NCBI RefSeq assembly: GCF_003846175.1
Contig: NZ_ML123047.1
Coordinates: 98,262 to 162,261, forward strand
Length of the DNA stretch: 64,000 bases
DNA from: Streptomyces sp. ADI95-17
GTDB taxonomy: Bacteria; Actinomycetota; Actinomycetes; Streptomycetales; Streptomycetaceae
Direction: 5' to 3'
The stretch's first letter is position 1. The number at the start of each line of letters is the position of its first letter. Both the position numbers and the translations under genes were made by a program. Shown here piece by piece: positions 3,613-11,654 of the stretch. The notes beneath the pieces were generated by a model. It did not search any database. It saw only the letters and a program-made list of their open reading frames with translations, and was not told the DNA's origin.

Positions 3613-4569
3613 ATGGCGAACACCAGCTCACGGACGCTCAGACTGCTCTCGCTGCTGCAGACCCACCGCCACTGGCCCGGCCTGGAACTGGCCGGCCGGC
3701 TCGGGGTGTCCGAGCGGACCCTGCGCCGCGACATCGACCGGCTGCGCGAGCTCGGCTACCCGGTCAGCGCGGCCCGGGGCACGGACGGCGGCTACCAGCT
3801 CGCGCCCGGCGCCGTACTGCCACCGCTGCTGCTGGACGACGAGGAGGCGGTGGCTCTCGCGGTCGGCATCGGCGACGCCGCGCAGAGCGGGATCGCCGGG
3901 ATGGAGGAGGCGTCCCTGCGGGCACTGACCAAGGTGGTGCGGGTCCTGCCGCCCCGGCTCCGGGCCAGGGTGGACGCCCTGCGCGCGGTGACCGTCTCCG
4001 CCTCCGCGTCCGGGCCGGCCGTCGCGGCGGGCGTGCTCACCGCGATCGCCCAGGCGTGCCGGGACGAGGAGCGGCTGCGGTTCGGCTACACGTCCAGGGG
4101 CTCGGCACCGGCCGAGCGCGAGGTCGAGCCGCACCGCGTCGTCGCCACCGGCGGCCGCTGGTACCTGGTCGCCTACGACCTGCACCGGCACGACTGGCGC
4201 AGCTTCCGCCTCGACCGGCTGACGGGTCCGACGGCGACCGGGACCCGCTTCCGCCCCCGCCCGCTCCCGGCCGAGGACGCCGCGGCCTTCGTCCGGGCGG
4301 CGAGCGGTGCCCCGGCCCCGTACACGGTCGAGGCCCTGGTCCACGCGCCCGCCGCGCGGGTCCGGCAGGCGGTCGGCCAGTGGGGCACGGTCCAGCCGCT
4401 CGGCCCGGACAGCTGCCGCCTGACCATGACCTCCACCTCCCTCGACTGGCCGGCCCAGGCGCTGGGCAACGTGGGCGCGGAATTCGAGGTCCTGGGGCCG
4501 CCGGAGTTCGCCGCGCATGTCCAGGACTGGGGCGCCCGCTTCCTCCGGGCCGTCCCCGCGCCCCGGTGA
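3613..4569 (+). CDS. YafY/WYL-family transcriptional regulator
   Basis: 318 aa. The N-terminal DeoR-type helix-turn-helix is at about residues 5-60 (LAGRLGVSERTLRRDIDRL). It is followed by 'GTDGGYQLAPG' and a WYL domain centred on 'RWYLVAYDLHRHDWRSFRLDR' spaced over residues about 183-203. WYL domains sense ligands, often nucleotides or nucleic acid. The gene is divergent from the oxidoreductase/winged-helix pair, so control of that pair and of itself is the natural inference. It converges on the TPR gene, with 69 bp between the stops and no obvious terminator. Confidence 0.9.
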   Translation: MANTSSRTLRLLSLLQTHRHWPGLELAGRLGVSERTLRRDIDRLRELGYPVSAARGTDGGYQLAPGAVLPPLLLDDEEAVALAVGIGDAAQSGIAGMEEASLRALTKVVRVLPPRLRARVDALRAVTVSASASGPAVAAGVLTAIAQACRDEERLRFGYTSRGSAPAEREVEPHRVVATGGRWYLVAYDLHRHDWRSFRLDRLTGPTATGTRFRPRPLPAEDAAAFVRAASGAPAPYTVEALVHAPAARVRQAVGQWGTVQPLGPDSCRLTMTSTSLDWPAQALGNVGAEFEVLGPPEFAAHVQDWGARFLRAVPAPR

Positions 4570-4638
4570 TCCGCCCCGCCACCGCGCGGGCAGATCACTC
4601 GGCGCGTCCCTCCGCCGCACGCGGGGGCGGCCGGGTCG

Positions 4639-7600
4639 TCACCCCCCGTCGCGCAGCCGGTTCGCCAGGGAGGACAGCGGCTCGGCCTCCTCGGTGTGGC
4701 CCAGGGCGGTCAGCCGGGAGACCGCCGCGTCGAGGCGGTTGAGGGCGGGGGCGGGGCGTTCCAGGTAGATGCCCTCCACAGCAGCCGTGAGGCGGAGGCA
4801 CTCGGCCCACTCACCGGCGTGGTCCTCGCCCTTCTCCGGCGTCGGCCCGCCGAGCAGGGCGAGGGCCTTCTCCAGAGCGGCGAGGGCGTCCTCGTACGCA
4901 CCGGCGTAGGCATTGACCCGCCCGTGCTCGTAGGCCAGGGCGGTGTCCAGGGAACGGCCCTGGGCCTCGTACTCGGCGGCGCGGGCCTCGTCGGCGATCC
5001 GGCCGGCGTCGGCGAGGCGGGCGAGGGCGTCGGCCAGGCCTTCGGGGCCCTGCCGCTCCGCCTGGAGACGGGCGAGTTCGCGCAGGCAGCCGCTGAGCTG
5101 CTCGTAGCGCGGGGCGCGGGCATGGGCTGCGATCGCCTGCTCCGCGGCCTCGCGCGCCCGGCCGAACTCGCCGGACTCACCGAGGAGTACGGCCGTCTCC
5201 GCGGCGATCATGACATGGCTCCCCGGGTCGTCGTCCCAGCGTGCCGACTCGGCCGCGAGCGCGACGAACTCCGTCGTGGCGGCCTTGAGGTCCTCCCCCG
5301 TGTGCAGCGCGCGGGCCCGGGTCAGGCGCAGTTGGGCGACGAGCCGGTCGTCCACCTCTCCGGCGGCGACGTCCGGTTCGGCCAGGAGCGAGTCGAGCAG
5401 TGCGATGCAGTCCTCGACCCGGCCCAGGTCGAGGCAGAGCTGAGCGGCGTTGCTGTAGGCGCAGTACGCGTCCGTCCGGCTGCCCCGGCGCAGCTCCAGC
5501 TCCGCCGAGCGCGTCAGGTGCCGCAGTGCCTCGTCGGGGCGGCCGAGGTGCATGCAGACCTCGGCCAGATCGGCGTGGAGGCGGGCGGTGTCGACGACGT
5601 CGGCCGGCCAGTCGGCGGCCAGTCGCAGTCCCTCGGCCAGGTCGGCCTGCGCGGCCTGCGCGTCCCGGAGGCCGAGCTGGATCCGACCGCGCAGCGCGAG
5701 CGTACGGGGCAGGTGCCAGGCGGGGCCGTGCGCCTTCAGCCGGTCGCGGACGCCGTCGATCACGGTGACCGCGGCGGGCAGGTCGCCGGAGAGGGCGTGG
5801 GTGGTGGCCCGCAGCAGCAGGGCACCGGAGATCTGCCCGCCGAGTTCGTGCCGGGTGGCGAACGCGAGCAGCAGGTCGGCCTCGGCGAGAACCGGCGCGA
5901 CGTGCGCCTCGTCCCCCGACGTCTGCAGCCGCATGCCCAGCGCGGTCGCCCGCAACCGCAGCAGGCGGGCCTCCTGGTGCGGGGCGAGGCCGGACGCCTC
6001 CTCGTGCAGGCGGACCATGGCCGCGTGGGCGGAGGCCAGCGCGGCAGCCTTCACCGCGGCCCCACCGGCACCGTCCGCCCCATCGGCACTACCAGCCCCC
6101 TCGGCCCCCTCGGCCCCCTCGGCCCCCTCGGCAGGGATCTCCGCGGGGATCTCCGCGGCGGCGAGCAGGGCGCAGGCACGCGCGACCGCCGCGTCGCCCG
6201 GCGCTCCGGCGTCCTCGTACAGGCCCGCGGCCTCCTCATGGAGAGCGGCGGCCTCGGCGAACTCGTCCTTCTCGCCCGTCCGGCTCGCCTCGTCGCTCAG
6301 CAGGTCCGCCCGCAGCCGTGCGAGCGGACCGACGGCCGGGTCGTCGGGGTGGGCGTAGTCGCGGGAGGCGGCGAGCGTGCGCAGTTTCGACCAGCACGCC
6401 CGCGCGTCCGGGTGCCCCTGCTCGTCCAGCGTCCGTGCCCGGAGGATGAGTTCGGGCAGCGATTCCGGGACCTCGGCGGCCGTACGGGCGGCGGGCGCGG
6501 CGACCGGGGCGGCCGGGGCCACTTCGTCGAGGCCACGGGTACGCAGGGTCAGTTCCAGCGCGTCCACGAGCGGCGCGCGGTCGAGGCGGGCCCTGCGGCG
6601 GTCGGTGTGGGCCGTGGTTCCGTTGCGGGCGTCGAAGCGGGCGGCGAGGTCGTCGGCGCGGCCCCGCACCTCGGCGCGCAGGCCGGCCACCGTCCAGGTG
6701 CGGCCCGCGTATCCGGCGGCGGGCAGCTCACCGTGCCCCAGGGACTCGACGCGCTGGAGGAGCACCTCCGCACCGGTGAGGAAGTCGAACAGGTCCAGCG
6801 GCGACTCCACCTCGCCGAACAGATTCCGGTTCTCGGCGAGCAGTTCCAGGCCGCGCGCCTCGTTGCCGGTCAGCGCGCAGAACTCCAGGTGCCGGCCGAC
6901 CTCTCCGGACATCGAGGGATTGCGGCGGCAGTTGCGGTAGCCGGCCAGGTGCAGTTCGCGGGCCCGGTCGACGCGGCCGCTGCGCAGCAGGGGCAGCAGC
7001 GCGTACGAGACGGAACGGGCCGGCTCCTCCTGGCAGGACTCCTTCCCGGCCAGGACGGGTTCCCAGTCGTTCAGCGCCCGCTCGTCGTCGCCCGCCGCGA
7101 GGTGGTACAGGGCGCGCTCGCAGATCTCGCAGGCCTCGCAGTCGCTGAGCCCGGTCCGGGAGCGGCCCGCCCACAGCTCGTAGGCGAGGGTGGTGCCCTC
7201 ACCGATGTGGGCGGCGAGCTGGTACGCCTGCCCGTAGTAGGGCTGGAGGCCCAGTCCGGCCTTCTCGTACCGGTCGCGCATCTCCGTCAGCCACTGGCGC
7301 AGGCCGGCCAGCGGTATCTCGGGCAGCACGCGCAGCGCGTCGGCCACCCACTTGAAACGCCAGAACAGCGTGTGGCGCCGGCGCTCGTCGAACACGTCGG
7401 GCTGCTCGTCGAACAGGTTGAGCAGACGGGCGAAGACGACGGGCGACTTCCGGGGCTCGGAGCCGTAGGTGTACGCCTCCTGGAGCTCGAAGAGCGCGTG
7501 GACGAGCGGGACGGGCTCCGCGAGCTGTTCGGCGGCGTCCACCAGTTCCTCGGCGGTGACCGTGCGGGTGCGGCCGTAGGGGAGCCGGTCGTTCTCCTCC

Positions 7601-7644
7601 AGCGCCTGGTACAGCTCGTCGGTGTTCTGGGGTGCGGTCGGCAT
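4639..7644 (-). CDS. Large tetratricopeptide-repeat protein paired with HSP90
   Basis: 1001 aa, almost wholly helical repeats. TPR-like pairs are visible, e.g. 'ADLAEVCMHLGRPDEALRHLTRSAELE' spread over the middle-to-late part and 'AYAGAYEDALAALEKALALL' near the C-terminus. Residues about 160-180 hold a cysteine cluster C-x2-C-x2-C (CEACEIC) with further Cys nearby. A Gly/Ala/Glu linker encoded by a 9-bp tandem repeat splits the protein at about residue 505. No enzymatic domain, signal peptide or membrane segment is seen. Its ATG lies 2 nt past the stop of the HSP90 gene, so coupling is certain. TPR proteins are the classic HSP90 co-chaperones in eukaryotes, and a scaffold or co-chaperone role here is inference. 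Confidence 0.85.
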   Translation of the reverse strand: MPTAPQNTDELYQALEENDRLPYGRTRTVTAEELVDAAEQLAEPVPLVHALFELQEAYTYGSEPRKSPVVFARLLNLFDEQPDVFDERRRHTLFWRFKWVADALRVLPEIPLAGLRQWLTEMRDRYEKAGLGLQPYYGQAYQLAAHIGEGTTLAYELWAGRSRTGLSDCEACEICERALYHLAAGDDERALNDWEPVLAGKESCQEEPARSVSYALLPLLRSGRVDRARELHLAGYRNCRRNPSMSGEVGRHLEFCALTGNEARGLELLAENRNLFGEVESPLDLFDFLTGAEVLLQRVESLGHGELPAAGYAGRTWTVAGLRAEVRGRADDLAARFDARNGTTAHTDRRRARLDRAPLVDALELTLRTRGLDEVAPAAPVAAPAARTAAEVPESLPELILRARTLDEQGHPDARACWSKLRTLAASRDYAHPDDPAVGPLARLRADLLSDEASRTGEKDEFAEAAALHEEAAGLYEDAGAPGDAAVARACALLAAAEIPAEIPAEGAEGAEGAEGAGSADGADGAGGAAVKAAALASAHAAMVRLHEEASGLAPHQEARLLRLRATALGMRLQTSGDEAHVAPVLAEADLLLAFATRHELGGQISGALLLRATTHALSGDLPAAVTVIDGVRDRLKAHGPAWHLPRTLALRGRIQLGLRDAQAAQADLAEGLRLAADWPADVVDTARLHADLAEVCMHLGRPDEALRHLTRSAELELRRGSRTDAYCAYSNAAQLCLDLGRVEDCIALLDSLLAEPDVAAGEVDDRLVAQLRLTRARALHTGEDLKAATTEFVALAAESARWDDDPGSHVMIAAETAVLLGESGEFGRAREAAEQAIAAHARAPRYEQLSGCLRELARLQAERQGPEGLADALARLADAGRIADEARAAEYEAQGRSLDTALAYEHGRVNAYAGAYEDALAALEKALALLGGPTPEKGEDHAGEWAECLRLTAAVEGIYLERPAPALNRLDAAVSRLTALGHTEEAEPLSSLANRLRDGG
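6095..6131. repeat. 9-bp tandem repeat inside the TPR gene
   Basis: Four copies of CCCCCTCGG (plus strand), encoding Glu-Gly-Ala units on the minus strand. Adjacent imperfect GATCTCCGCGG copies encode Ile-Pro-Ala-Glu. The unit is a multiple of three, so length changes would keep the frame. Confidence 0.85.
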
Positions 7645-7646
7645 CG

Positions 7647-9494
7647 TCAGCTGTCCTTGCGGAGGGCGTGGGCGAGGAGGTCGAGGAAGGAGCGGTTGAT
7701 GAGGCTCGATTCGGCGGCCCTGAGCGGGCGCCGGGACAGCAGCGCGGCCTGCCCGTAGAGAGCTTCGGCGCTGGTACGGGCCAGCTCGGGCTCCTCGATG
7801 GCGACGGCGGCGCGGACCAGCGGGTTCAGCTGGTTGAGGATCAGCTGGGCCCGCGGGGCCTCCTGGCGCAGGGCACCGAGGATGTCACCCCACACGCCGC
7901 CCTCCTGCTCACGGGCGAGCTGGGAGCGGGTGCGCTCGTGCCGGGCCTCGCGGCTGTCGACGAGGAGGGCGGGGGCGGAGGCGGGCTGGAAGGTGCGCAG
8001 CGCGACATCGCAGTCGAAGACGGCGAGGGCGTCGCGGGCCAGGGCGAGGTAGGCCACGGCGGCCAGTTCGGTCTCGCGGTCGACGGGGTCGAGGTGGGCG
8101 GTGAGGGTCGCCGGGTCGAGGTCGGCGACACTGACCTCGGGCCTGATCTCGGGCAGCCGGTGGACCAGTTCACGGTCGTACGTGTAGCCGCCGTTGACGA
8201 CGCCGAGCCCGGCGGCCGAGGCGATCGCCGCGACCTGGCGGAACTCCTCCACGCTCGACGTCACGAGCACGGTGCGGTGGGTGCGCGCGAACTCGTCGAG
8301 AGTGGTGTGCCCGTCGGTGGTCTCGAACGGCAGCCAGGGCAGCAGCATCCGCAGGATCTCGTCGTCGTGCACCGCGAGCGACTTCACGGCCAGGTGGTGG
8401 GCCTGGAGGAACCGGCCCAGCAGGTCCGGATCGCTGGCGGCGGCCCGGGCTATCCAGTCGCGCAGCCGGTCGGCGAGGGCGTCGCGGACGGCGGCGAGCG
8501 TGTCGTCCTCGTACAGGGACTCGCGGGAAGCCGTCGGGCGCAGGCTCTCGGCATCGATGACACAGCGGACGAAGAACGCCCACTCGGGCAGGAGTTCCTC
8601 GGCCTGCTCGGACAGCAGCATGCCCTTGACGTGCACGCGATGGCCGTGACGGCGCCCGGCCGGCACCGCCTCGGGCAGCACGCACGCGATGCCCTTCAGG
8701 CCGACGGCCGGCAGGTCCAGTTCGATGGTGTCCAGCGGCGTGAACCCGAAGACCCCCTGCCCGTACGCGGCCAGCGCCCGGGAACGGGAGCCCGGGGTGG
8801 GGTACGTACGGGCCCAGGGTGCGGGCTCCGGATTGACGGCCACGTCCTGACCGACCGTGCCGTCGTCGAAGGTCACCGGGTGGCGCAGCAGGGAGCCGAA
8901 GTGCCGGGCCAGCGCGTGCACCTGCGTCGGCCGGGTCCACTCGCCGGCGTCGGCGCGCGGCGTCAGCGTGACGGTGGTCCCGGGGCGGGGGCGGGCGGAC
9001 GCGGGCAGGGCGCGCACGGTGTAGCTGCCGTCGCCGCGCCCCCGCCACTCCACGGCGGGTGCGTCGGGGGTACGGGCGGAGCGGCTCAGGACGTGGATCT
9101 CGTCCGCCACCAGGAAGCAGGAGAGCAGCCCGATGCCGAACTGGCCGATGAAGTCCCCGCGTTGCTCGGCGATCCGCTCGGCGCGCTTGCTGCTGCGGCC
9201 GATCGTGGCGAGGAAGCTGTGTACGTCGGCCTCGGTGAGACCGACGCCGTCGTCCTCGACGCGTACCACCGAACCGTCGGCGTACAGGCGGATCCCGAAG
9301 GCATCGGCGGGGGCGTCCGGTGCGAGTCCGCGCCGGGCGGTCAGCGCGTCCACCGCGTTCTGCAGGAGCTCGCGGAGGTAGACGCGTGGGCTGGAGTAGA
9401 GGTGGTGGGAGAGGAGGTCGACGAGGCCGCGCAGATCCACCTGGAAGGTGCGATCGGCGCCGGCCGGGTTCGCTGCGGTGTCGGGCAGAGTCAT
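7647..9494 (-). CDS. HSP90-family ATPase (HtpG-like chaperone)
   Basis: 615 aa. The GHKL ATP-binding domain is complete: E42 and N46 in LRELLQNA, D81-D-G-V-G85, and G117-Q-F-G-I-G122. The HSP90 middle domain carries the diagnostic 'LLPEWAFFVR..ID.ESL' and SRESL (323-327) signatures. The C-terminal third is only weakly like canonical HtpG, and there is no MEEVD tail. It is cytosolic by lack of signals. The TPR gene follows after 2 nt, and an uncharacterised gene precedes it by 90 nt on the same strand. It should bind and hydrolyse ATP, but its clients are unknown. Confidence 0.9.
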   Translation of the reverse strand: MTLPDTAANPAGADRTFQVDLRGLVDLLSHHLYSSPRVYLRELLQNAVDALTARRGLAPDAPADAFGIRLYADGSVVRVEDDGVGLTEADVHSFLATIGRSSKRAERIAEQRGDFIGQFGIGLLSCFLVADEIHVLSRSARTPDAPAVEWRGRGDGSYTVRALPASARPRPGTTVTLTPRADAGEWTRPTQVHALARHFGSLLRHPVTFDDGTVGQDVAVNPEPAPWARTYPTPGSRSRALAAYGQGVFGFTPLDTIELDLPAVGLKGIACVLPEAVPAGRRHGHRVHVKGMLLSEQAEELLPEWAFFVRCVIDAESLRPTASRESLYEDDTLAAVRDALADRLRDWIARAAASDPDLLGRFLQAHHLAVKSLAVHDDEILRMLLPWLPFETTDGHTTLDEFARTHRTVLVTSSVEEFRQVAAIASAAGLGVVNGGYTYDRELVHRLPEIRPEVSVADLDPATLTAHLDPVDRETELAAVAYLALARDALAVFDCDVALRTFQPASAPALLVDSREARHERTRSQLAREQEGGVWGDILGALRQEAPRAQLILNQLNPLVRAAVAIEEPELARTSAEALYGQAALLSRRPLRAAESSLINRSFLDLLAHALRKDS

Positions 9495-9584
9495 CGGGCA
9501 GTCCGGGGTGAAGGGGGCGACGGGTGGCGGGGGTGCGGCCGCAAGCGGCTCCGGCAGCAGCCGGGAACCGGGACCGGCGTGCGC

Positions 9585-10571
9585 TCAGGCGCGGCGCTGG
9601 TGGCGGGCGAACTGCTTCTCGGGCTCCGCGAAGTAGGACCAGGGCCATTCGGTGCGGGCGCCGTCGAGCGCCTGGAAGACGCGCCGGACCGTGTGGCGCT
9701 CACCGGCCAGCGACAGGGCCATGGCGAACATGTTGAAGTCCTGCTGCCAGCCCGGCCGACGTACGTAGGCGGGGTGGAGGATGCTGTGATCGGCCGCGTT
9801 GCGCAACTCGGCCTGGATCTCGGGGGTTTCGAGGCACCCCGCGTGTTCCGACTCGACCCATTCCTCGATGTGCGCCATGGCGATCACACAGCCGATCCGG
9901 TGCCCCTGCGGAGCACGGGCGAACGCGTCGCGGGCGAATGCCAGGGCCTGGCCCGGTTCGCCGCTCCAGCGGGGCTGCAACTGCGACACCCAGTCGATGT
10001 GGGTCTCCAGGTCCAGCGGATCGCGGCGCAGGGCGGCGTCGAGCCGGGTCCTGTTGACGACCGGGCCCAGCGACATGCCCCGGCCGGAGGTGAGCAGGCA
10101 ACGCCACGGCGTGATCCACTCCGGCCGCAGCTCGGCGGCTTCGAACAGCTGCTCCTCGGCGAGGTCGAGCCGCTCGTGGAAGACCCGCCACTGTTCCTGC
10201 GTGACGTTGGCCGCGCGCTCGGCCGTACGCGCCTCCCAGCCCCAGACGACGTGGCGCGCCCCGGATATCAGCAGGGCCGTGGCCCGGTGCTCCTTGTCCT
10301 CCTCGACGGCACGGCCGATCCAGTCCTGCACACCGTCCAGGTCGGACAACTGGCCCAGGACCTTGTGGTCGTGGCCGAGATCGAAGGGAACCAGCGCCGC
10401 CTTGACCGCCTCCCAGTCCCCCGCATCGGCCGCCTCCACCAGCGCGAGCACCCGCACGTCCCCGAGCGCGCGCAGCGTGTACGCCCCGTTCCTCCGCCGC
10501 CGCGGAACGGGCAGGGCATACGAATCCGCCTCCGGTCTCTCCCCGCCCCCGCCGAACAGCCTGCCGAACAT
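9585..10571 (-). CDS. Uncharacterised soluble protein upstream of HSP90
   Basis: 328 aa, not recognised as a named family. It begins MFGRLFGGGGERP, then has an 'ALVEAADAGDWEAVKAAL' stretch and a long alpha-helical body with repeated 'W..P' turns and TPR-like segments (e.g. 'EPGQALAFARDAFARAP'). No signal peptide or membrane segment is seen. The start at 10571 is chosen because GGGGAGGG lies just upstream. An in-frame start at 10736 would add a non-conserved-looking Arg/Cys-rich leader. Same strand and 90 nt spacing suggest an operon with the HSP90 and TPR genes. Confidence 0.8.
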   Translation of the reverse strand: MFGRLFGGGGERPEADSYALPVPRRRRNGAYTLRALGDVRVLALVEAADAGDWEAVKAALVPFDLGHDHKVLGQLSDLDGVQDWIGRAVEEDKEHRATALLISGARHVVWGWEARTAERAANVTQEQWRVFHERLDLAEEQLFEAAELRPEWITPWRCLLTSGRGMSLGPVVNRTRLDAALRRDPLDLETHIDWVSQLQPRWSGEPGQALAFARDAFARAPQGHRIGCVIAMAHIEEWVESEHAGCLETPEIQAELRNAADHSILHPAYVRRPGWQQDFNMFAMALSLAGERHTVRRVFQALDGARTEWPWSYFAEPEKQFARHQRRA

Positions 10572-10811
10572 ACCGAGCCCTCCCCTGGTCCCGCGCGATC
10601 GTCGGGTGCAGCATAGGCGCCCCCACCGACATCGCTTCCACAGAGTATTCACGGGTGCTTCACGCCCCGGCCCGAAGACCATCCATGACGGGGCGGGTGC
10701 GGGCTTGAACACCGGTTCGGCCGGTGCACGCTCCACGACGCCTTCGTCTCTCTGGCCTGAAGCCTTCCCGCGCTGTTCGACCGACCGGGCGCAGGCGCGG
10801 GCCCGAGGGCC

Positions 10812-11339
10812 TCAATGGGCCGGTGCCGGGGGCAGGCAGCCCGTCTCCGGGAAGTGGCCGTTGACGTCCGACCAGACGCGCTCCGCGGTGACGGCACCGG
10901 TGACACAGGCGGTCCTGCCGATCCAGATTCCGTACACGCTGCCCCGAACAGGGCTTTGGTCTCCTGATGTGGTCCGCTCCGTCACCTCCAGGCGGGCGGG
11001 AGCGGTGAGGGGCGCAAGGGCCTCCCGCACCTGGGCGGGCCGGGTCCGATGCTGACGCCGCAGATCCTCAAGGGCCTGAGTGATGTCCTTGACCTTCTCC
11101 CGGGCTCGTTTCTCGTCCGCCGGGTCCGGACGGTCCGGGCGTCGTGCCCGGCTGTTGTCTCCGTAGAACGGCGCCGCGTCCAGGCCGGCCGTGCCGCTGC
11201 TCGGGGTTTCGTGCTCGGAGGCGTTGGACGAACTGGTGCCGTTGAGATTGGAGAAGAGATCGTCCGCGTCCTTCCCGCAGCTCGTCAGAGCGAGGACGCA
11301 GAGCACCGCGACCACGGCCGTGCCAGTGCGACAGGTCAT
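10812..11339 (-). CDS. Small lipoprotein
   Basis: 175 aa. The signal peptide has the lipobox L-T-S-C at about residues 18-21, so the mature protein starts at Cys21 and is anchored to the outer face of the membrane. The body is short and charged with Ser/Asn-rich spacers ('LNGTSSSNASEHE') and a C-terminal region containing two Cys. No domain is recognised. The 240-bp gap to the preceding gene shows nothing else. Confidence 0.75.
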   Translation of the reverse strand: MTCRTGTAVVAVLCVLALTSCGKDADDLFSNLNGTSSSNASEHETPSSGTAGLDAAPFYGDNSRARRPDRPDPADEKRAREKVKDITQALEDLRRQHRTRPAQVREALAPLTAPARLEVTERTTSGDQSPVRGSVYGIWIGRTACVTGAVTAERVWSDVNGHFPETGCLPPAPAH

Positions 11340-11530
11340 GACTCCAGTGTCCCTTCGCGGTCGCGGCAGGGGCGTGAGTACGCATGCTCAACCGTGGCGC
11401 GAGACCGGGCCCACCTACACCGTCACCAGCAGCCCGGAGCGATCACCGCAGATGTCGGTCGTCGATGCCAGCGGCAGTTCTTCCGGCCGTCTGCGCTCGC
11501 GCGGCCCGCGCCCGACGCCGCCGCATCCAG

Positions 11531-11574
11531 TAAAAGCAAAAGCCCCAGGTCACGGCGAGTGAGTCCTGAGGCTT
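11531..11574 (-). terminator. Intrinsic terminator of the tRNA-Thr gene
   Basis: On the minus strand AAGCCTCAGG pairs with CCTGGGGCTT (one G-U pair, 15-nt loop), followed by a T-rich run TTTTGCTTTTA. It begins 7 nt downstream of the tRNA 3' end. Confidence 0.85.
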
Positions 11575-11580
11575 CCACAG

Positions 11581-11654
11581 AGCCGCCTTCGGGATTCGAA
11601 CCCGAGACCTACGCATTACGAGTGCGTTGCTCTGGCCAACTGAGCTAAGGCGGC
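11581..11654 (-). tRNA. tRNA-Thr, anticodon CGU (reads ACG)
   Basis: 74 nt. The acceptor stem GCCGCCT/AGGCGGC is perfect. The D-arm has AGCTCAGTTGG, and the anticodon stem ACGCA/TGCGT encloses loop CTCGTAA with anticodon CGT. The T-arm GGTTCGAATCC is canonical. The discriminator base is U, and CCA is not encoded (CTG follows). The anticodon reads the frequent high-GC Thr codon ACG. Confidence 0.97.

Follow-up and report, generated by a model that had tools for sequence, protein, structure and literature searches.

Eukaryotic HSP90 works with tetratricopeptide repeat (TPR) co-chaperones such as Hop/Sti1, Tom70 and FKBP51. For bacterial HSP90, a passage in a 2019 paper states that 'cochaperones are absent' (PMC6520445), and a section of another paper puts the number of known prokaryotic HSP90 clients at a handful (PMC11687934). 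Bacterial HTPG proteins have been split into groups A-C, and S. coelicolor was listed with two of them, one being 615 amino acids long (Chen et al. 2006, PMC1525184); the string 'tpr' occurs 0 times in the main text of that paper. Here we describe a 64,000-nucleotide stretch of Streptomyces sp. ADI95-17 (the window; C4:98262-162261 of a 10.0-Mb genome in 22 contigs, GC content 67-77% in 2-kb steps) in which an HSP90 gene is directly followed by the gene of a TPR protein. Together with a third gene, called UP here, they are transcribed from the minus strand in the order UP, HSP90, TPR, with gaps of 90 nt and 2 nt. The original prediction had described this layout, a 1001-amino-acid TPR protein behind the HSP90 and a 328-amino-acid protein upstream of it, and the open reading frames (ORFs) are where it had put them. 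The HSP90-TPR gene pair is a conserved, specific and co-inherited unit.

The window HSP90 matched the NCBIfam family NF010683 ('HSP90 family protein') with 819 bits, compared to a curated cut-off of 455, residues 14-614 aligning to positions 5-599 of the 604-position profile. Its score with the HtpG equivalog NF003555 was 187.5 bits, under the curated cut-off of 371. The HtpG match ran to position 602 of 614, which would take in a putative C-terminal dimerisation domain. On these profile scores we class the protein as a member of the NF010683 family and not as an HtpG. The 615-amino-acid second HTPG copy of S. coelicolor is likely a member of the NF010683 family too. The GHKL ATP-site residues (E, N, D-x-G-x-G and G-x-F-G-x-G) and the middle-domain R324 are all present. 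In an alignment of 8 sequences reaching Paenibacillus and Listeria, residues E42, N46, D49, D81, G83, G85, G117, F119, G120, G122, S323, R324 and E325 were invariant; the motifs by which the protein had been recognized (E42, N46, DDGVG, GQFGIG and SRESL) are all present and stand in invariant columns.

Had TPR homologues rarely been adjacent to HSP90 genes, the pairing would have to be called accidental, as the original prediction itself pointed out; adjacency was found in 108/109, 26/27 and 80/80 cases in three collections. In the genus sample (150 genomes; an N-terminal HSP90 fragment in G305 was excluded from the counts), 109 HSP90s of the family were present in 95 genomes, 14 of which hold two copies of the module. 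The N-terminal domain of the TPR partner (TPR-N), which served as the query, lay on the same strand directly downstream of all these HSP90s except one, with 3-102 nt between the match ends (median 30), and at the lone exception (G322:C587:16-444) the contig ends on that side. In the reverse direction, 108 of 111 TPR-N matches lay behind an HSP90 of the family. Both genes were found in 94 genomes, HSP90 only in 1 (the contig end), TPR only in 2 and neither in 53, amounting to joint presence or absence in 147/150 genomes. At G305:C2:1670749-1672517 the module HSP90 appeared as two separate matches, of which one contains an in-frame stop, beside an open TPR neighbour; either the copy is decaying or the assembly is in error.

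The pairing extended beyond the genus. In the class sample (197 genomes, with distances taken from two match tables and some of its 15 genus matches also included in the 150-genome count), TPR-N adjoined all HSP90 matches but one, including 11 of the 12 outside the genus, and the adjacent pairs span six families and eight genera. Conversely, 26 of 29 TPR-N matches were adjacent to HSP90, the orphans being in G171, G204 and G607:C4. The HSP90 without TPR-N, in G560, scored 479 bits, above the NF010683 cut-off, and its gene overlaps by ATGA with the downstream gene of another protein, whose TPR repeats exceed the Pfam cut-off. In the phylum sample, NF010683 exceeded its cut-off in 10/296 genomes and the TPR gene was adjacent in 10/10 (one locus each). 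No match to the TPR gene was obtained at 20 phylum loci below the NF010683 cut-off. In the corresponding control (L011-L030 minus L028, loci not each tested as HtpG), none of the 19 loci had a TPR gene directly downstream within the 269-870 nt present; 10 were without a same-strand downstream ORF of at least 60 amino acids, and the 9 ORFs found at the others matched no TPR family. The third collection, a scan of named genomes, consisted of the best 80 of 569 loci and hence favours close relatives (25 loci of type A, 20 of A2 and 35 of type B, the module versions described below). TPR-N was also present in 8 plasmid records, with HSP90 adjoining it in 6 (Streptomyces, Paenibacillus and Listeria). 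An Actinomyces oris plasmid (L154 4337-9051) has a 1011-amino-acid TPR-N protein behind two YbjN-matching genes, the second below cut-off, with no HSP90 detected there.

HtpG genes gave a different picture. Among the matches listed for the 150 genus genomes, TPR-N lay within 5 kb of 0/65 HtpG genes above cut-off; all 65 were compared with those 50 of the 111 TPR matches that cover their genomes, and an earlier set selected at E 1e-50 gave 0/34. The module was present in 95 of these genomes, HtpG in 65 (again among the matches listed) and both in 38 (Fisher p 0.31). The window genome itself has an HtpG above cut-off at C7:853386-855287. HtpG is neither a prerequisite of the module nor incompatible with it. 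In Leptospira interrogans (L158 1-7794), htpG lies behind a VWA/TPR/BatD gene row, with a TPR gene two genes away.

The distance from the HSP90 stop to the TPR start at the 80 named-genome loci was -4 nt in 25, +2 in 24, -1 in 18, 0 in 6 and other values in 7, with starts picked by script (L091, an 18-codon reading, has a junction of 1799). A Shine-Dalgarno-like stretch of the TPR gene lies within the last HSP90 codons, and the two genes are probably co-translated. The window HSP90 ends in LRKDS and not in MEEVD, and no MEEVD tail was seen among the HSP90 tails read at the 80 loci (that of L091 was unread owing to its 18-codon reading). We considered the recurring tails LRKDS, EPRKEL and EEGRR as a binding peptide and rejected this, as they fall where the downstream TPR gene has its purine-rich Shine-Dalgarno stretch; they are semi-conserved because that stretch falls inside the last HSP90 codons. 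Since the C-tails are variable and overlap the TPR ribosome-binding site, the eukaryotic MEEVD mechanism does not apply.

The TPR partner was predicted to fold into two all-helical solenoids (pLDDT 91) with a weak linker at residues 369-386, and PF07719 exceeded its Pfam cut-off in one stretch of it (30.2 bits versus 27). TPR-N (~360 amino acids) has homologues as far off as Paenibacillus (25% identity to the Streptomyces domain, E 7e-23) and Listeria, where two copies stand in tandem (E 4e-23 and 1e-22). Residues W95, K98, W99, C169, A171, C172, G200, C204, P208, D338 and R340 are invariant in the alignment. At two Bacillota loci (Paenibacillus and Listeria) the partner is the N-domain alone, 320-353 amino acids long, and the Streptomyces partner carries an added second solenoid, the C-array. 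In an alignment of 39 of 72 full-length TPR sequences with the window TPR, mean identity to the window protein in the N-domain versus the C-array was 86 versus 73% for type A (6 sequences), 54 versus 30% for A2 (18 sequences) and 42 versus 24% for type B (15 sequences). By these identities TPR-N evolves more slowly than the C-array. A structure search with the whole partner returned many similar TPR superhelices, none pointing to a function; the TPR domain of LGN, for example, matched residues 393-761 of the model (Z 24.3, root-mean-square deviation (rmsd) 6.5, 310 residues). The TPR frames of L042 and L072 have 565 and 515 amino acids, half the usual length, their C-array being truncated or frameshifted.

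That the 328-amino-acid protein is a third member of the module held in the window's lineage and failed in type B: UP was found in 45/45 type A/A2 loci versus 0/35 type B loci. Among the matches listed for the 150 genus genomes, 38 of the 40 close homologues of UP precede HSP90 by 54-411 nt, and the remaining 2 are in G325, a genome without the module. None of the next 20 paralogues lies upstream of HSP90 (0/20), and the UP family has a match in all 150 genomes. UP is therefore one branch of a large paralogous family that joined the module. Its earlier description as TPR-like stood for the predicted fold, which is all-helical (pLDDT 90) with TPR superhelices as the top structural matches; it did not extend to a Pfam match or to a structural match at E <= 0.001, as none of either kind was obtained. 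The UP alignment contained 31 of the 45 UP sequences and the window UP.

Streptomyces and near kin have at least three versions of the module (A/A2, B and C). When flanks were compared, with loci under 15 kb left out, type A loci shared little beyond the three module genes (each in 22/22, the next best ORF in 3/22). A2 loci shared UP and HSP90 in 17/17 and the next best flanking ORF in 5/17; the ORF kept at the TPR place in this comparison was antisense in 16/17, and the TPR gene itself was verified separately. Types B and C occupy fixed chromosomal places, with conserved flanks in 27/27 and 8/9, among them genes that we take by eye to be recG, a DAK2-like gene and kptA. At the DNA level, positions 4638-10665 of the window matched G304 at 89%, G306 at 86% and G301 at 87-90% in two pieces, that is 3 of the 20 relatives searched (among the matches listed). 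These matches are at places other than the matches to the window flanks, and the three genes therefore form a discrete 6.0-kb cassette. No repeat of at least 9 nt was common to 4540-4660 and 10620-10800 at the cassette edges. Conserved blocks at 10572-10665, upstream of UP, are probably the promoter of the cassette; no promoter-like site turned up when 4400-11600 was scanned for sigma-70 promoters. Heat-shock control through CIRCE or HAIR was considered and rejected, the exact patterns being absent from both strands of the whole window with no mismatches allowed. Searches of viral sequences gave 2 weak loci in IMG/VR viral contigs and 26 records in a phage collection, 2 of them covering at least 80%; the best (L152) is a 6.6-kb unverified faecal contig, bacterial-looking, with HSP90 and TPR-N. 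The features of the window are collected in Table 1.

Table 1. Features of the HSP90/TPR locus, in window coordinates.
Feature	Position	Strand	Basis
HSP90, family NF010683, 615 amino acids; GHKL ATPase, middle and C-terminal regions, full catalytic motif set, no MEEVD tail	7647..9494	-	ORF, profiles, alignment
TPR partner, 1001 amino acids; conserved N-terminal solenoid, residues 1-365 (DCxACE and GxxxC motifs), and faster-diverging C-terminal TPR solenoid, residues 395-1001	4639..7644	-	ORF, Pfam, alignment, model
TPR-N, N-terminal domain of the TPR partner; kept as far as Paenibacillus and Listeria; query of the adjacency counts	6550..7644	-	sequence search, alignment
UP, third member, 328 amino acids, predicted TPR-like solenoid, all helices; 5' of HSP90 in type A/A2, the window's lineage	9585..10571	-	ORF, model, locus comparison
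Cassette leader; conserved blocks GTGGAA and TATGCT 5' of UP in type A loci; probably promoter	10572..10665	-	13 aligned leaders; promoter role predicted
Three-gene cassette; matches G304, G306 and G301 (two pieces) at 86-90%, away from flanks	4638..10665		edges are BLAST ends, +/- few bases

To the right of the cassette, a tRNA-Thr (CGT) gene lies at 11580-11654 on the minus strand. We considered it as a general integration site; a tRNA gene was found in only 1 of 44 type A/A2 loci (L112; within the fetched stretch, L094 left out of the scan), and the tRNA-Thr is therefore no such site. In the DNA comparison, the stretch right of ~11530 and the genes further right match many relatives, and the cassette matches elsewhere. 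Upstream of the cassette, at 10812-11339, is a gene of 175 amino acids that is lipoprotein-like by eye, and the region ~10796-11391 is 89% identical to a second copy in the same genome (C7:49393-49988).

We read the pair, with moderate confidence, as a dedicated HSP90/TPR chaperone module, in which HSP90 has the TPR protein as its dedicated co-chaperone, the N-domain sitting on HSP90 and the C-array on the targets. The original prediction of a module is strongly supported at the level of the genes, and the mechanism that it proposed, with the TPR protein as a client adaptor, is plausible; contact between the two proteins, control of the ATPase and client delivery are what we infer from the gene data. 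The HSP90 and TPR proteins, co-translated, would bind each other, and the slow-evolving TPR-N would dock on HSP90 through a surface other than the MEEVD/carboxylate clamp. The docked domain would then set the HSP90 ATPase cycle, and the faster-evolving C-array would capture a particular set of clients and hand them to HSP90. A constant N-domain may in this way face a constant HSP90, with the variable C-array facing the clients. UP could be a further adaptor or a client-side subunit, and the module would operate alongside the general chaperone HtpG without replacing it.

Several observations weigh against such a co-chaperone. TPR-N occurs without HSP90 in G171 and G424 (divergent orphans), G371 (a partial copy), G204 and G607:C4, and without a detected HSP90 on the Actinomyces oris plasmid (beside YbjN genes) and in Priestia; a related case is a PA1069-like TPR gene in Nonomuraea with no HSP90 detected within 6 kb. 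The C-tails of HSP90 vary, and the TPR ribosome-binding site overlaps them. The faster change of the C-array could also be loose constraint, and the correlations between HSP90 and TPR protein distances (Mantel r 0.51, 0.90 and 0.81, from 24/25 type A loci with L091 left out, 20/20 A2 and 34/35 type B) follow from linkage alone.

The main rival explains the same gene data with the TPR protein, and UP with it, as an obligate client. HSP90 would then be reserved for a single large TPR regulator, which it folds or activates and which carries out the function of the system. This predicts the same genomic pattern, adjacency in 108/109 included, and agrees with HSP90 being more conserved than its partner: between the window and type B, identity is 60-63% for HSP90, 41-44% for TPR-N and 24% on average for the C-array. 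The different kind of partner seen in G560 and in the Gammaproteobacteria, and the presence of TPR-N without HSP90 in a few genomes, also fit. The latter can be turned around, as TPR-N homologues that persist without HSP90 need not depend on it, and a Bacillota partner of only ~330 amino acids at two loci is hardly a demanding client. We consider this explanation unlikely.

The module could also be a conflict or stress system, for example against phage, in which HSP90 and the TPR protein together make up a sensor/effector unit and HSP90 is its ATP-driven switch, in the manner of eukaryotic NLR-HSP90 pairs. The patchy distribution of the type A cassette, at unrelated sites, is consistent with this. 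So is a Pseudanabaena plasmid (L035 7932-10562), where a related HSP90 of 383 bits, below the NF010683 cut-off, lies beside a TIR gene of the ThsB type and the second gene downstream codes for a TPR protein. The C-terminal part of this HSP90 has a stretch similar to the TIR domain of CAP12/Pycsar (E 0.001, under the Pfam cut-off), and together with the TIR gene it is possibly an HSP90-linked conflict system. In the window, PADLOC-DB 2.0 gave no match for TPR or UP, and the only matches for HSP90 were weak ones, between its N-terminal ATPase region and models of TmtA and type II restriction. No PADLOC system was found among the window proteins and no effector domain in the three module proteins by profile scans, and types B and C stand at fixed chromosomal places, unlike most defence genes. 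The defence or stress role that the original prediction had offered as an alternative found little support, exact HAIR and CIRCE patterns being absent as well, and we regard it as improbable. Related sequences do inherit their neighbours, and the distance correlations are expected from linkage; a mere passive linkage of functionally unrelated genes kept by common descent is nevertheless hardly credible, with the gene order surviving across two phyla, where partner identity is 25%, and in several chromosomal contexts unrelated to each other, and with joint presence or absence in nearly all of the 150 genus genomes.

The HSP90 family is already known; its TPR partnership is new. We found no description of an HSP90-TPR module in the open-access literature, although subscription papers could hold one. 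The near-constant pairing suggests that a dedicated helper exists for some bacterial HSP90s, contrary to the usual view. Because the pairing, at 108/109 cases, is found in a genus well supplied with laboratory strains, both the existence of a bacterial co-chaperone and the clients that it would deliver are directly testable, and the module provides an outgroup for how HSP90-TPR partnerships arise.

Among known systems, HtpG shares the motif set of the window HSP90, and its profile aligns over nearly the full length of the protein. The window HSP90 differs in its score (187 bits compared to the cut-off of 371) and in having the TPR-N neighbour that HtpG genes are without (0/65). A gene pair of similar build occurs in P. 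aeruginosa, which we take from gene order to be PA1068-PA1069, and in its Xanthomonas and Salmonella relatives, where 2-36 nt separate an HSP90-like gene from a downstream gene whose product has 764-774 amino acids. The P. aeruginosa and Xanthomonas HSP90-like proteins are homologous to the NF010683 family over 532 columns (E 5e-51). The HSP90s of all three genera differ in scoring 277-293 bits, below the NF010683 cut-off; they score higher with NF010683 than with HtpG and stay below both cut-offs. Their partners have TPR matches below the Pfam cut-offs, and the relation of the Gammaproteobacterial partner to TPR-N is doubtful (hhalign probability 14%, E 0.0019 in one comparison). In passages of published work, PA1069 seems to share an operon with an Hsp90 gene and is inducible by calcium and/or growth as a biofilm (PMC4053335), is a row in a proteome table (PMC5541441), is a row in a table within a section on BatR interactions (PMC13411936) and, in a temperature transcriptome table, has a changed, apparently lower, transcript (PMC4957987). 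If that row is read rightly, the lower transcript speaks against simple heat induction of the Pseudomonas pair. A PA1069-like TPR protein in Nonomuraea (L156 5995-8271) is 29% identical over 773 columns, in a neighbourhood that by eye resembles miaA-dapF.

At the Listeria locus, which we take to be lmo0942-lmo0941/lmo0940, an NF010683 HSP90 (799 bits) is followed by two tandem TPR-N proteins. It differs in that the partners are 320-324 amino acids long and consist of the N-domain only, and in the SUKH/SMI1 gene that comes next; one text passage calls lmo0941 hypothetical (PMC6901971). Eukaryotic HSP90/TPR pairs resemble the module in combining an HSP90 with a TPR solenoid partner, and the predicted window C-array matches Tom71 bound to the Hsp82 peptide (Z 17.1, rmsd 4.8, 303 residues), with many other TPR proteins ranking higher. 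They differ in that the window HSP90 is without MEEVD and the partner gene adjoins the HSP90 gene, and we know of no eukaryotic co-chaperone with the DCxACE and GxxxC motifs of the window N-domain. We tentatively propose, at somewhat less than even chances, that bacteria have a second HSP90 line with TPR co-chaperones of its own. This would be an old, MEEVD-free partnership in which the partner was replaced one or more times, in G560 and perhaps also in Gammaproteobacteria, each time remaining a TPR protein, and the pairing of HSP90 with TPR proteins would not be a eukaryotic invention.

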